Assembly: GCF_003014675.1 (NCBI RefSeq)
Contig: NZ_PYAU01000001.1
Coordinates: forward strand, 806,001 to 870,000
Direction: 5' to 3'
Source of the DNA: Labedella gwakjiensis
Lineage (GTDB): Bacteria > Actinomycetota > Actinomycetes > Actinomycetales > Microbacteriaceae
DNA length: 64,000 nt
Of the stretch, positions 42,339-47,300 are shown one piece after another (the stretch's first letter is position 1; the number at the start of each line of letters is the position of its first letter). The notes beneath the pieces were generated by a model. The model saw only the letters and a list, made by a program, of their open reading frames with translations, had not been told where the DNA came from and did not search any database. Made by a program: the position numbers and the translations under genes.

Positions 42339-42407
42339 CTCTCAAGGGTACGCGGTGCAGCCTGGACGTCGGCCCGTCACGTCTTCCTCCGCGGAGGCGG
42401 AGACGAG

Positions 42408-42446
42408 CGAAGGGGCGGCCGACGCAGTGCGTCGGCCGCCCCTTCG
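42408..42446 (-). terminator. Perfect 19-bp hairpin downstream of hup
   Basis: CGAAGGGGCGGCCGACGCA, a single G, then its exact complement: a 39-nt perfect inverted repeat 18 bp after the HU stop. There is no long U-run but the stem is very stable. It separates hup from the ctaG gene read in the same direction. Confidence 0.85.
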
Positions 42447-42464
42447 GCGGCGTGTGGGCCGTGA

Positions 42465-42752
42465 CTACTTGACGGCAGCCTTGAGCTTCGAGCCAGCCGA
42501 GACCTTGACCGAGTGGCCGGCAGCGATCTGGATCGTCTCACCGGTCTGCGGGTTGCGGCCGGTGCGAGCGGCACGCGAGGTGCGCTCGACGGCGAGCCAG
42601 CCGGGGATGCTGACCTTGACGTCGTTGCTGACCGAGTCAGCGAGAACCGAGAACAGAGCGTCGAGAACGCCGCTCACCGCAGCCTGGCTCTGGCCCGACT
42701 CCGAAGCGATCTTTGCAACGAGCTCGGTCTTGTTAAGCGACTTATCAGCCAT
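42465..42752 (-). CDS. hup: HU-family DNA-binding protein
   Basis: 95-residue nucleoid protein: LNKTELVAKIASESGQSQAA, SVSNDVKVSIPGWLAVERTS, then the DNA-embracing arm RAARTGRNPQTGETIQIAAG. It has no Lys/Ala-rich C-terminal tail, unlike mycobacterial HupB. ATG 42752 follows GAGGAGG. A probable -10 TACATT reads leftward at 42851-42856, giving a leader of about 100 nt. Confidence 0.95.
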   Translation of the reverse strand: MADKSLNKTELVAKIASESGQSQAAVSGVLDALFSVLADSVSNDVKVSIPGWLAVERTSRAARTGRNPQTGETIQIAAGHSVKVSAGSKLKAAVK

Positions 42753-42977
42753 GAAGTGTCCTCCTCGGACCTTGTTACGAAGTACAGTCGTTTTCTCCTG
42801 TAGCGCCGCCGCGGTACGAACCCACGGCAGCCGGTCTCTCGACCGCCTCGAATGTAACAGAAAACCCCGAGATTCCGCGGAACTACGCACTTTGCGACGA
42901 GATAACACCCGGCGTGTCGGCCCGATCGACCGCGAGAGGACCCTCTATCGGGCACTCGTCGCGCGGTCGGGCGGCGG

Positions 42978-44072
42978 TCACTCTCCGGACGAGACCGCCC
43001 CGACGAGGTACTGACCGCCCGAATCGAGTACACGGATCTGCACCGAGAACTCCCGGTCCCCCGTCGTGAACCCGCACGCGAACTCCGCCCCGGCCGAGGC
43101 GCTCGGCTCCTCCGGGCAGCTGACATCGCGAACGTCGGGGAGGCCGTACTCGTCCTCCAGCACTCCCTGGACGTCCTCCTCGACCGCAGCCCCCGTGAAG
43201 ACCGGGCGCACGAACTGCCCGCTGATGACGAGCGTGAGCAGAGTCGCGACAGCGGCACCGACGAGCCCCGCCGTGATCGCCGTGCCCCAGGCGACACGAC
43301 GCTTCTTCTTCGAGACGTCGGGCGCGGGTCCGTCCGGCTGTCCATACGGAGCGAACGATCCGGCGCCCTGCTGCCCGGGAGCCTGCGGGTTCACGTGCTG
43401 CTGACCGGGCCCGGCGGCGTACTGGACGGGGTACCCCTGCCCGGGACCCGTGGGAGCGCCGTGCGGGCGCCCCTGACCCTGCGCAGCGGAACCGGGCCCC
43501 TGCGCAGCGGAACCGGGCCCCTGCGGAGCGGAACCGAGCCGCTCGGTCGGGGCCGTGGGCGCCGAGGCGCGCGGGTACTGCTGGGTCGGCTGATTCGGCT
43601 GCCCGGACGGGGGCGATGACGGCGCCGATGGCTGAGCCGTGGGGTGCCCGACGCCCTGGGGGCGGTAGGTCGATGCCGCCGGAGGCTGCTGCCCTGCCGG
43701 CGCCCGGCCTGGCTGGTTCCACTGACCCTGAGCAGGCTGACCCTGACCCGGCTGACCCTGGTTCCACTGACCCTGGTTCCACTGACCCTGCGCCGGGCGG
43801 TCCTGCTGGGGCTGCGGCCACTGAGCTTGTCCGGGCTGAGCCTGCCCGGGCTGAGCCTGCCCGGGCTGAGCCTGGGGCTGGCGCGGCTGCGGCCACTGCG
43901 GGGACGGCTGGCCGGCGACGGGAGTCGGCCACGGCTGCTGCTGCCCCTGCTGCGGCTGCTGCCCCTGCTGCGGCTGCTGCCCCTGCTGCTGCTGCGCCTG
44001 CTGATCACGCTGAGCCTGGCGCCACTTCTCCTGCTCGTCGCCGGATCCTCCGGGGGTGCGACCGTCACTCAT
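42978..44072 (-). CDS. DUF4333 membrane protein with long Q/P/G-rich cytoplasmic region
   Basis: 364 residues. The first ~250 are low-complexity Gln/Pro/Gly sequence made of short repeats (GQQPQQ, GQAQP, GQWNQ, GPGSAAQ), mirrored by DNA repeats such as a 21-mer at about 43478-43540 and a 15-mer at about 43826-43880. KKKRR then precedes one membrane helix (VAWGTAITAGLVGAAVATLL). The outer C-terminal ~80 residues form a DUF4333 domain with Cys pair VSCPEEP … FACGFTTGD. Last gene of a three-gene envelope operon; overlaps the lipoprotein gene by 8 bp. Confidence 0.8.
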   Translation of the reverse strand: MSDGRTPGGSGDEQEKWRQAQRDQQAQQQQGQQPQQGQQPQQGQQQPWPTPVAGQPSPQWPQPRQPQAQPGQAQPGQAQPGQAQWPQPQQDRPAQGQWNQGQWNQGQPGQGQPAQGQWNQPGRAPAGQQPPAASTYRPQGVGHPTAQPSAPSSPPSGQPNQPTQQYPRASAPTAPTERLGSAPQGPGSAAQGPGSAAQGQGRPHGAPTGPGQGYPVQYAAGPGQQHVNPQAPGQQGAGSFAPYGQPDGPAPDVSKKKRRVAWGTAITAGLVGAAVATLLTLVISGQFVRPVFTGAAVEEDVQGVLEDEYGLPDVRDVSCPEEPSASAGAEFACGFTTGDREFSVQIRVLDSGGQYLVGAVSSGE

Positions 44073-44949
44073 CTCTCAACCTCTGGATCTCTTCGTAGAA
44101 CGCGTCGACGTCCGAGGCGTCGATCGTCGTGACATCGAACGGGGACGGCGGTTCGGGCAGCTCGTCCTCGTCCACGGCCCCCGTCGACTCGAAACCGACG
44201 AGGAGGCGACCGCCGTCCTCGCCGAGCGAGGCCGAGAGTTCGATCGCGTTGAACGCCCCCTCCGCGTCGCTCTGAATCGTGATGGTGGCGACGCTGCCGT
44301 CCTCGATGCCGTCGGGATCGAGGAGGCCGGACGGCAGGTCGAGCGTCTCGGCCTGTGCGGCGATGTTGGCGAGCGACGTCGTGACGCTGATGCGGGAGAC
44401 GCCCTCCTCGTCGGTCGAGAGGTCGTAGATGGGCGCCGTCTCGGCGTCGTCCGCCTCGAGGGCAGCGCTCGCACCGCAGAAGACGCGTTCGGCCGGCAGC
44501 AGACACGGGTCGTCGTCCGCACCGATGACGGTGGGGACCTCCGTCCACAACGTGGGGCTCAGCTCGGCGAACTTGGAGCCGAGGAGCAGGAAGTCGGAGT
44601 CGGACCCACCCTCGTGGTAGACGTCGATGGTGTCGCCTTCACGGCTCGAACTCTCGCGCACCACGACCGTCGCGGGATCGCCGAGGAGGGTGACTTCGCG
44701 TGTGAGGTCGAAGTCGTCCGCCCCGCCGACCGTCGAGACGTACTCGAGACCTGCCACGTCCGTGCCGGCCGAGAACTGCTCGGTGGCGGCCGCCATCCGC
44801 TCCTCGAAGAGCGAGCCGAGGAAGTCCTGTCGCGCCGCCGTGTCGGCGTGCGCCTCACCCTCGACATCACGGGTCGCGCAGCCGCTCAGGCTCGCAGCGA
44901 GGACGACGGAGAGGACGCCGCCGAGCAGAACTCTGCGGCGGGCGGTCAC
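44065..44949 (-). CDS. Hypothetical lipoprotein
   Basis: 294 residues. Signal RRRVLLGGVLSVVLAASLSG with lipobox SLSGC; acidic secreted body with a Cys pair (DDPCLLPAERVFCGAS). The layout is reminiscent of LppX/LprG-like lipid carriers (N-terminal FLGSLFEERMAAATEQFSA, beta-rich middle), but this is not a firm assignment. It sits between the V8-like protease and the DUF4333 gene, overlapping both. Confidence 0.72.
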   Translation of the reverse strand: MTARRRVLLGGVLSVVLAASLSGCATRDVEGEAHADTAARQDFLGSLFEERMAAATEQFSAGTDVAGLEYVSTVGGADDFDLTREVTLLGDPATVVVRESSSREGDTIDVYHEGGSDSDFLLLGSKFAELSPTLWTEVPTVIGADDDPCLLPAERVFCGASAALEADDAETAPIYDLSTDEEGVSRISVTTSLANIAAQAETLDLPSGLLDPDGIEDGSVATITIQSDAEGAFNAIELSASLGEDGGRLLVGFESTGAVDEDELPEPPSPFDVTTIDASDVDAFYEEIQRLRDE

Positions 44950-46007
44950 GCCCCGCCCCCCGCCTGGTTGTAGAGCGCGAGTGCGACCTCACCGAGGGCG
45001 GCGCTGAGCATCTGCCCGCCGCCACCGCGGGAGTTGGAGCCGATCAGGTAGCCGGCGCCCGTCGTGGAGTCGAACTTCGTGAGCCACGCGCCGCCCGAGC
45101 ACCCACCCGTCATGTCGCAGCTGAGGACGTAGTCATTGGTGTACCGGTCGGCGACGTTGCTGGCCGAGCAGTAGCGCTCCGACATGCCGTCGAACGGCGG
45201 GGCCGCCGGGTAGCCGATGGAGAGGACACCGTTGAGCTCGCCTCCGAACGAGATGCCCTGCCCGCCGGTGACGTCCTGGATCTGTTGGCCGTCGCTGTTC
45301 GCGTCCATGGTGAGGAAGGCGAAGTCGTAGTACCAGCCGTTGCCGGCGGTGCGGCCGCTCTCGTCGGCCTCGGCCTGTTCGATGAACTCGGTCGGCGCGA
45401 AGATCTTGTTGGCATACCAGATGCCGAACGGCGTCTCTTCCATCTGGTTGCGATCGGCCGGGACGAACTGCAGCTTCTGCGCGTACCGCTTGCTGTACGC
45501 GTCGTAGACGCAGTGGGCCGCGGTCGCGACGATGTTCTTGCCGGCGGAGTTCACGACGGTGGCAGAGCACACGTACGCCGTCTGATCGTCGAACGCCCCG
45601 TAGAGGCGTCCGTGGACCTGGCCGGCGAGGCCCGGAGCCGCGAACGGGTTGCCGGCGGACGAATCCTGCAGGCTCGCCGGGTCGACCTCGTCGACCGGGC
45701 CGGTCGTGGGGTCGACGAGCACGCCTGTGGGCTTGTCCGTGAGCGTCTCCTCGCCCTCGGGCGGCGGCTCGTACTCCGGAGCGCTCGCGTTCGACGCGTT
45801 GTCGTCCCAGAAGTCGTTGGTGGCACCGGGGTCGCTGTCGATGTCGACGGACTCTCCCGCCGCCAGGATGTCGACGTTGATACCGGGTGCGCTGTCGGCG
45901 GGCACGGCCTCGCCGTCGACCGTCACGGTGCAGGCGGTGAGGCCTGCTGCCGTGAGCAGCGTGGCCGCGAGCACGGCGAGTCCCCTGAATCTCCGAGTGC
46001 TGGGCAT
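44946..46007 (-). CDS. Trypsin/V8-like serine protease lipoprotein
   Basis: 353 residues. Signal with lipobox AAGLTAC, then CTVTVDGEA and an acidic, Pro-rich segment of ~100 residues. The chymotrypsin-fold domain has VATAAHCVYD (His165), YYDFAFLTMD (Asp228) and DMTGGCSGGAWL (Ser304); Cys residues flank it. Gly/Ser in GGCSGG and the late acidic stretch resemble glutamyl endopeptidases. It is a membrane-anchored exoprotease, first in the operon and overlapping the next gene by 4 bp. The long acidic segment may be an inhibitory propeptide. Confidence 0.88.
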   Translation of the reverse strand: MPSTRRFRGLAVLAATLLTAAGLTACTVTVDGEAVPADSAPGINVDILAAGESVDIDSDPGATNDFWDDNASNASAPEYEPPPEGEETLTDKPTGVLVDPTTGPVDEVDPASLQDSSAGNPFAAPGLAGQVHGRLYGAFDDQTAYVCSATVVNSAGKNIVATAAHCVYDAYSKRYAQKLQFVPADRNQMEETPFGIWYANKIFAPTEFIEQAEADESGRTAGNGWYYDFAFLTMDANSDGQQIQDVTGGQGISFGGELNGVLSIGYPAAPPFDGMSERYCSASNVADRYTNDYVLSCDMTGGCSGGAWLTKFDSTTGAGYLIGSNSRGGGGQMLSAALGEVALALYNQAGGGA

Positions 46008-46080
46008 GGTGCGATGCTAACAGCCGCCTCCGACACCGCCGAGGGGTAGAACTCCCCCGCCGGGTCTGCCGGACCGACCG

Positions 46081-46109
46081 CCTGATCGGCCCGATCCATC
46101 CCGATCAGG
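46081..46109. promoter_or_regulatory. Inverted repeat between protease operon and epoxide hydrolase
   Basis: CCTGATCGG at 46081-46089 and its exact complement CCGATCAGG at 46101-46109, with an 11-bp spacer. It lies in the 138-bp divergent gap, so it is more likely an operator than a terminator. Confidence 0.5.
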
Positions 46110-46145
46110 ACACGGTGCGTCCTCTTCGCTCGGCACACTGACCGC

Positions 46146-47300
46146 ATGACGATCACACACGAGCCCCATCCCTTCACGGTCCGCGTCCCCTCGGCCGAAC
46201 TCGACGATCTCTTCGCTCGCGCGAGCGCGACTCGTCTCCCGGATCCCATCGGCGACGACGACTGGAGTACCGGCGTCCCCGTCTCCGTCCTCCGATCGCT
46301 CCTCGCCAGCTGGAGGGAGGACGTCGACTGGGGTGGCCTCGAGGCGCGGCTCGCCGCCATTCCCCAGTACCTCACGGAGATCGACGGCCAGCGCATCCAC
46401 TACGTCCACGTCCGATCGTCGCGGCCTGACGCCACACCCCTCCTCCTCTGCCACGGTTGGCCCGGCTCGTTCCTCGAGTTCCTCGACCTCATCCCCCTGC
46501 TCACGGAGCCCGACGACGCTGGCGCGCGGGCGTTCGACGTCGTGATCCCGAGCGTGCCGGGATTCGCGTTCTCCATGCCACTGCAGGGGACCGACTGGAC
46601 GACGGAGCGCGTCGCGGGAGCCTTCGTCGAGCTGATGGACGCCCTCGGCTATGAGCGGTACGTGGCGCAGGGCGGGGACTACGGCGCCGGCGTGGCGCCC
46701 GCGATGGGTCGACTCGATCCTGAACATTGCGTCGCCATCCACGTCAACGGGTCGATCGGCGCACCCACCGGTGAGCCCGACGAGGACGAGATCGCACGGT
46801 CGACGGAGATCGAGCGCGACCGCTACCGCCGCGTCGGGGAGTTCATGGCCGAGGAGTTCGGCTACATCTCGATCCAGTCCACACGACCGCAGCTCATCGG
46901 CACCGCCCTCACCGACAGTCCCGCCGGGCTCCTCGCGTGGATGCTCGACAAGTTCCGCGCATGGTCGTTCCCCTTCGACGCGGAACCGGACGGCCGGATC
47001 GGGCGGCGGAGGATCCTCGAACACGTGTCGCTCTACTGGCTCACACGGTGTGCGGGGAGCGCGGCCTTCACCGTGTACGCAGCCGACGCTGGAGCGTGGG
47101 GAGCAGCGTCCGAGCGTCCGACGCAGCCGGTCGGCGCGATCATGTTCGCCCACGACATCGGGATCCGGCGGCTCGCGGAGGCCGAGTATCGGGTCGTGCA
47201 CTGGACCGAGGTCGACGACCGGGGCGGACACTTCGCGGCGATGGAGGAGCCCGAGATGCTGGCCCACGACATCCGCACCTTCCTCGACGGACTGGACTGA
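46146..47300 (+). CDS. Epoxide hydrolase
   Basis: 384 residues. An N-terminal EHN domain (FTVRVPSAELDDLFARASAT … WRTD-like region) precedes an alpha/beta hydrolase core with LCHGWPGSFLEF (H-G-x-P), nucleophile Asp178 in AQGGDYGAGVAP and catalytic His in GGHFAAMEEPE. Matches the juvenile-hormone/microsomal epoxide hydrolase group widespread in actinobacteria. CACACT just before the short GACCGC leader suggests near-leaderless transcription. Natural substrate unknown. Confidence 0.93.
   Translation: MTITHEPHPFTVRVPSAELDDLFARASATRLPDPIGDDDWSTGVPVSVLRSLLASWREDVDWGGLEARLAAIPQYLTEIDGQRIHYVHVRSSRPDATPLLLCHGWPGSFLEFLDLIPLLTEPDDAGARAFDVVIPSVPGFAFSMPLQGTDWTTERVAGAFVELMDALGYERYVAQGGDYGAGVAPAMGRLDPEHCVAIHVNGSIGAPTGEPDEDEIARSTEIERDRYRRVGEFMAEEFGYISIQSTRPQLIGTALTDSPAGLLAWMLDKFRAWSFPFDAEPDGRIGRRRILEHVSLYWLTRCAGSAAFTVYAADAGAWGAASERPTQPVGAIMFAHDIGIRRLAEAEYRVVHWTEVDDRGGHFAAMEEPEMLAHDIRTFLDGLD

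Follow-up and report, generated by a model that had tools for sequence, protein, structure and literature searches.

What joins a tethered protease, a lipoprotein and a DUF4333 protein whose genes overlap in the genome of Labedella gwakjiensis? The three open reading frames (ORFs) lie on the minus strand of a stretch of 64,000 nucleotides, bases 806001-870000 of the 3.84-Mb genome (hereafter the window), in the order protease, lipoprotein, DUF4333 protein, and are referred to here as the triad. The reading that we put forward, as quite possible although by no means assured, is that they constitute a self-contained surface-proteolysis cassette, in which a tethered zymogen would be under the control or direction of a LolA-fold lipoprotein and the DUF4333 protein. 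That the three genes act together is well supported, since the triad is kept in related genomes. Its members are:

44946..46007, minus strand: gene 1, protease of 353 residues (Trypsin_2 match, Anisep/AL20 homology, catalytic residues)
44065..44949, minus strand: gene 2, lipoprotein of 294 residues (LSGC lipobox, predicted LolA/LprG/RseB-like fold)
42978..44072, minus strand: gene 3, DUF4333 protein of 364 residues (Pfam DUF4333, topology deduced from charges)

Conservation and specificity of the triad

The first-pass annotation of this DNA had described three overlapping genes with exported or membrane-anchored products, congruent with the ORFs: the start of gene 2 overlaps gene 1 by 4 bp, that of gene 3 overlaps gene 2 by 8 bp, and export or anchoring is predicted for each product. 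It had also named conservation as the check on a joint role, and the neighbours are indeed kept. We searched 299 Microbacteriaceae genomes with the protease. Matches were present in 43 genomes, 19 of which, from four genera, hold a full-length relative with E<=4.3e-61, the others scoring 6.9e-34 or weaker. All 19 carry protease, lipoprotein and DUF4333 gene in this order on one strand. The 19 strongest DUF4333 matches in a Microbacteriaceae sample of the same size fall in those very genomes, each DUF4333 gene beside the protease, and a single-sequence search with the lipoprotein gave 18 matches, 16 of them adjoining the protease and the remaining two weak and partial (genomes G103 and G301).

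A lipoprotein profile applied to 297 genomes of the order recovered the triad in two further families as well, f9 (one genome) and f20 (four genomes of genus g106), for a total spread of six genera in three families. The same kind of search across the class, in 374 genomes, added no triads: apart from the own genome it gave a single match, weak and partial. Two f20 copies are cut by contig ends, and the counts below therefore refer to 25 protease-lipoprotein pairs and 23 complete triads. One f20 genome holds two pairs. In the f20 genome G535 the end of an open frame matching DUF4333 lies just ahead of a triad (L120, 1-4793), and a second contig (L119) bears another protease-lipoprotein pair, which suggests duplicated cassettes.

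The arrangement is compact throughout. Genes 1 and 2 are separated by -4 to +5 in 24 of the 25 copies (the last has +71, or -4 from an alternative start), and genes 2 and 3 by -11 to +63 in the 23 complete triads. Homology of the lipoproteins extends from genus to genus: when each group in turn was left out, a profile of the others detected it at E 2.3e-23 to 5.4e-69, against 0.06 for the best shuffled decoy. Moreover, the distance matrices of the three proteins correlate at r 0.87-0.93 over the 23 complete triads and at r 0.77-0.88 over 11 representatives, where at most 2 of 5000 permutations were as high. Such agreement is expected if the triad is inherited as a unit, and fits vertical descent and joint transfer alike. 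Outside the triad, Labedella, g65 and g21/g88 have different neighbouring genes, although g21 and g88 hold some in common; names of genes outside the window are here our reading of ORFs rather than family matches. Co-occurrence and gene order, like the catalytic residues, lipoboxes and predicted fold described below, are direct results of the analysis.

The partners were also looked for outside the triads. Weaker protease relatives were inspected in 20 of 24 genomes (all but G292, G125, G134 and G169), and none of the 20 loci has a lipoprotein or DUF4333 partner nearby. Likewise, no protease or lipoprotein was found near any of 20 DUF4333 loci outside the triads. These were chosen in descending order of score and come from 18 of the 33 further genomes above the cut-off, with two additional DUF4333 genes of the triad genome G248 among them; the triad-derived DUF4333 profile itself missed five of these 20. 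With partners absent from both sets in full, tethered protease with pro-region, lipoprotein and DUF4333 protein go together. Weak partial lipoprotein matches outside triads occur in G103, G301, G568, G485 and G005, and no protease lies near the two inspected, G568 and G485.

The three proteins

Gene 1 matches Trypsin_2 in Pfam at 30.4 bits (cut-off 27.6), and the same family is found in all 19 members scanned. Its predicted layout is a signal peptide (1-25), Cys26 in the lipobox LTAC, an acidic pro-region (about 26-125) and a catalytic domain (about 126-353).

45633..45932, minus strand: acidic pro-region linking the acylated Cys to the catalytic domain, its boundary with the mature domain placed at the start of 3wy8/3cp7 homology

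The catalytic residues His165, Asp228 and Ser304 are present in all 25 copies, as are four cysteines. The lipobox pattern fits 23 of the 25 proteases, and the other two (L064 and L120) hold a Cys there in a less regular context. The acidic propeptide that the annotation had seen is kept throughout: in gene 1 it counts 22 D/E versus 1 K/R, and it measures 99-105 residues and is acidic in 25 of 25 copies (14-22 D/E versus 0-8 K/R), with W67, D91, T94 and G95 invariant. Judging from its position, the pro-region would keep the enzyme latent, and its cleavage or displacement would be expected to leave the catalytic domain active as a serine protease.

The protease family profile retrieved only two PDB chains at E<=0.001, 3wy8 (Anisep) and 3cp7 (AL20), and by sequence gene 1 is a trypsin-fold (PA clan, S1) serine protease of this type. 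Six residues ahead of the catalytic Ser the position is variable (D, L, T, S, N or V) and thus gives no indication of a P1 preference; five residues ahead, all 25 copies have Met. V8 has Thr at the latter position. S1B chains were absent from the PDB sequence matches of the protease, and a structural comparison of the PA clan (PMC6524800) places 3wy8 and 3cp7 in a group ('S1D-new') apart from the V8-type S1B enzymes. The label 'V8-like' given in the first pass is thus unsupported, the sequence relatives with solved structures being Anisep and AL20.

The distant relatives bear on whether genes 2 and 3 might simply be dedicated folding or export helpers by which the protease matures at the surface, the released protease performing ordinary extracellular work such as nutrient scavenging. 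Among the 20 weaker protease loci, 14 encode, by our own pattern, a signal peptide without lipobox and five, all of genus g64, a lipobox; in one no signal was found. Such mostly secreted relatives, and the strict co-conservation of the triad, are what a maturation cassette would lead one to expect, but the same relatives live without the partners, which argues that the enzyme type does not need them, and those of g64 are even lipid-anchored. We accordingly regard maturation as rather unlikely. The g64 proteins (L074-L078), which lack both partners, carry proline-rich linkers.

In gene 2 the lipobox LSGC predicts acylation at Cys24, and Cys149 and Cys158 are invariant in 19 members. The annotation's 'unknown lipoprotein' holds: Pfam offers no credible family for any of the 19, and NCBIfam gives weak matches only, to the SCO4651 family lipoprotein in four (best 0.0012) and to the CU044_5270 family in one (0.0065). 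An AlphaFold2 model was obtained with fair confidence (predicted local distance difference test score, pLDDT, 81.8; predicted template modelling score, pTM, 0.77). Foldseek returned 27 PDB matches at E<=1e-3, of which 23 are LolA, LprG or RseB (best LprG, 3.3e-6), the other four being one LolB, one ependymin-like protein and an uncharacterised staphylococcal protein present as two chains. VIA-align placed the model at Z 10.1 to 4mxt (root-mean-square deviation, rmsd, 5.0 over 180), 9.8 to LprF (4.6 over 187) and LprG (5.0 over 183), and 9.0 to RseB (4.6 over 176). Rows within one Z unit count as tied; jointly the hits point to a superfamily and not to a function. We thus predict, on the strength of the model, a half-barrel of the LolA/LprG/LppX superfamily.

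That the top structural matches are LprG, LprF, LppX and LolA invites a different reading, namely trafficking: the lipoprotein would carry a lipid or an acylated cargo with the DUF4333 protein as its partner in the membrane, and the protease would trim that cargo or clear it. A gene upstream of the triad in g65 reads like a diacylglycerol-kinase-type ORF, by our own reading without a family search. However, the LppX_LprAFG family (presumably PF07161) was matched by none of the 19 members at E<=1, and across genera no transporter or lipid-enzyme gene is common beside the triad, as judged by reading ORFs, neighbours outside the window not having been run against families. Trafficking therefore strikes us as improbable, to about the degree that maturation does.

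Gene 3 completes the cassette proposed here. It matches DUF4333 (PF14230) at 65.3 bits (cut-off 27), and its predicted layout is a Q/P/G-rich tail (1-263; 76% P/Q/G/A/S), one transmembrane helix (264-283) and the DUF4333 domain.

43017..43241, minus strand: DUF4333 domain, residues 278-352, with two cysteines invariant in 19 aligned copies

Across the 23 copies the N-terminal tail spans 97-391 residues with 56-83% P/Q/G/A/S, 3-7 K/R stand in the 15 residues before the single hydrophobic helix, and 75-129 residues including DUF4333 follow it. The K/R ahead of the helix predict a cytoplasmic tail and an outward-facing DUF4333 domain, in line with the long disordered cytoplasmic tail claimed in the first pass. 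Pfam found only DUF4333, and hence no anti-sigma domain, in gene 3; the NCBIfam entry AntiApopMycob matched weakly (0.0019, 18 bits against a cut-off of 250). A PDB sequence search with DUF4333 gave no credible match.

Upstream region and genomic setting

Three elements were noted upstream of gene 1:

46014..46019, minus strand: putative -10 element TAGCAT, 6 nt before the gene 1 ATG and at the same place in four of four Labedella
46044..46057, minus strand: imperfect palindrome GGGGAGTTCTACCC, a putative regulator site, 24 nt upstream of the -10 element
46081..46109, no strand assigned: 9-bp inverted repeat CCTGATCGG/CCGATCAGG with perfect arms at 46081-46089 and 46101-46109

A TAGCAT 6 nt before the start codon predicts a leaderless mRNA; a scan of 42400-46400 for consensus sigma-70 promoters found none. 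The upstream regions of g88 triads (L071-L073) read TGTCGGTG-8 nt-TAGCAT, with a weaker version at equal spacing in Labedella, an arrangement resembling the PafBC DNA-damage promoter motif.

The palindrome looks like a regulator site near -43. Its pattern GGGGAGWWCTNCCC occurs once in the whole L. gwakjiensis genome, at the triad, and 4-18 times per genome in four g88 genomes (both strands counted, perfect palindromes twice), the reversed control pattern being absent from seven of eight genomes searched and found once in G001. When TANNNT was required 20-27 nt further on, 22 matches were listed from 13 genomes. In 21 of them the spacing is 23 or 24 nt, and the 22nd is an alternative, overlapping reading of a site for which a 24-nt spacing exists too. 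The reversed control gave none in the 13 genomes; many of these matches are the same site in related genomes. Within g88, 13 of 31 distinct palindromes, under half, are followed by TANNNT within 20-27 nt. The combination with TANNNT 23-24 nt on recurs in Labedella, g65 and g88 (the window; L150, L154, L158, L162, L168, L169-L171). Before the triad itself, the palindrome is strict in the Labedella genomes G000 and G001, altered in G003 and degenerate in G002, and in three g88 genomes it lies upstream of the triad at another distance, nearer the divergent gene.

By eye, some ORFs behind other palindrome sites look WXG100-like or like membrane proteins. Seven gene products near such sites were compared with Pfam: one matched DUF4870, another was an AMP-binding enzyme, and the remaining five, including the WXG100-looking L158, had no match. 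A cassette co-regulated with, and acting on, WXG100-type exported proteins would be an accessory of type VII secretion, and the Labedella triad palindrome does precede g88 ORFs of WXG100-like appearance. Against this, L158, the only such ORF compared, drew a blank in Pfam, the g88 triads have their own palindrome displaced towards the divergent gene, and WXG100 proteins occur in 69 of 70 genomes regardless of the triad. EccB is found in 4 of 24 triad genomes versus 7 of 46 others, and in none of the four Labedella; EccB and triad do not go together, leaving a link by co-occurrence unsupported. We consider a type VII role very unlikely.

The inverted repeat is present as the annotation had it, but it is not conserved, being not visible upstream of the triad in the other three Labedella. 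When 138-bp stretches were sampled across the window, 6% held an inverted repeat of at least 9 bp, and on both counts the element carries little weight.

In the window the triad is flanked on one side by the gene of ribosomal protein S14 and a divergent epoxide-hydrolase gene, and on the other by an HU gene and a CtaG/CopD-type gene. The epoxide-hydrolase gene (46146-47300) here separates the S14 gene from the triad; the other three Labedella are without it at this place, S14 being directly upstream of the triad. None of the three triad proteins matched anti-phage defence systems in PADLOC.

Finally, that three unrelated envelope genes merely share an operon by chance, already disfavoured, is extremely unlikely: neighbours within one genus are expected to be conserved by descent, but the same triad recurs in six genera of three families, with differing surroundings where these were read.

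Proposed mechanism and known systems

How might a surface-proteolysis cassette operate? Gene 1 would be exported, acylated at Cys26 and held at the membrane via its acidic pro-region of about 100 residues. Cleavage or displacement of the pro-region would render the chymotrypsin-fold domain active, and cleavage would also untether the protease. The product of gene 2 would place a lipid-anchored half-barrel of LolA/LprG/RseB type beside it, on the outer face of the cytoplasmic membrane, and gene 3 would contribute its small DUF4333 domain on the same surface, with the long disordered tail in the cytoplasm. Together, genes 2 and 3 would control or direct the protease, by holding the zymogen or by presenting or shielding substrate, and the half-barrel may respond to lipid, or to an acylated or unfolded chain. 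In this scheme, physical contact between the proteins, the zymogen state, the direction of gating and the ligand are inferred. The envelope stress sensing or processing proposed in the first pass is conjectural. Regulated proteolysis is plausible in view of the LolA/LprG/RseB-like fold predicted for gene 2.

Several observations weigh against such a cassette. The best Foldseek hits reach TM-scores of no more than 0.25-0.41 normalised by query length and 0.30-0.54 normalised by target, at rmsd 6-12, so that the lipoprotein fold match is a remote one, and the VIA-align Z values of 8-10 come with rmsd 4.4-6.4. LprG and other actinobacterial lipoproteins of the LolA fold are known for carrying lipids and not for regulating proteases. 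There are also weak lipoprotein matches (L124, L125) with no protease in their vicinity. The DUF4333 model is poor (pLDDT 58) and without structural match in the PDB at E<=0.001, and the tail of gene 3 is of low complexity and ranges from 97 to 391 residues, which makes a released signalling domain unlikely.

Even so, one cassette joins three poorly understood actinobacterial envelope types: a lipid-anchored trypsin-fold protease, a LolA-fold lipoprotein outside Pfam and a DUF4333 protein, the last of which thereby gains a testable partner. Among literature titles, we found none on DUF4333 that concerns such a cassette, and nothing on the combination of lipoprotein and protease. Gating of the protease by the half-barrel, if real, would give Gram-positives a lipid-responsive surface proteolysis of their own.

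Each component has known relatives. The catalytic domain aligns with Anisep and AL20 over about 205 residues each (E 6.7e-33 and 1e-26 with the family profile) and has the active-site segment C-x-M-T-x-G-x-S-G-G in common with them; the triad enzyme however stands apart in its predicted lipid anchor, its conserved acidic pro-region and the two genes that always adjoin it, whereas 14 of the 20 related non-triad loci have a signal peptide without lipobox. The predicted fold and lipid anchor of gene 2 are those of the lipid carriers LprG, LppX, LprF and LolA, but its family is without LppX_LprAFG match and is tied to a protease gene. Similarly, gene 3 scores well over the cut-off of the DUF4333 proteins (PF14230), whereas the 20 other loci inspected have no such protease or lipoprotein nearby.

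As a whole, the triad recalls DegS-RseB-RseA and AlgW-MucB-MucA, each with one trypsin-fold protease, one LolA-fold protein and one single-pass membrane protein. In the latter, according to PMC7400510, the LolA-fold protein shields the membrane protein from the trypsin-fold protease, and lipid signals antagonise binding. The differences are several. Pfam scans gave only Trypsin families for the protease, which is without PDZ domain, and the membrane protein has no anti-sigma domain recognised by Pfam. Residues 46-278 of the gene 2 model align to RseB 25-212, and since only 16 residues remain, gene 2 would lack the second, C-terminal domain of RseB. No sigma-factor gene was noticed beside the triad, although no search was aimed at one. 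With PDZ, second RseB domain and anti-sigma domain all absent, the triad is not a member of the RseA/RseB/DegS system. It could conceivably be a Gram-positive counterpart assembled from different parts, where a lipid-responsive LolA-fold lipoprotein gates the zymogen, which would cut the DUF4333 ectodomain and so alter what is assembled by the tail; we hold this specific version to be doubtful, more so than maturation or trafficking.

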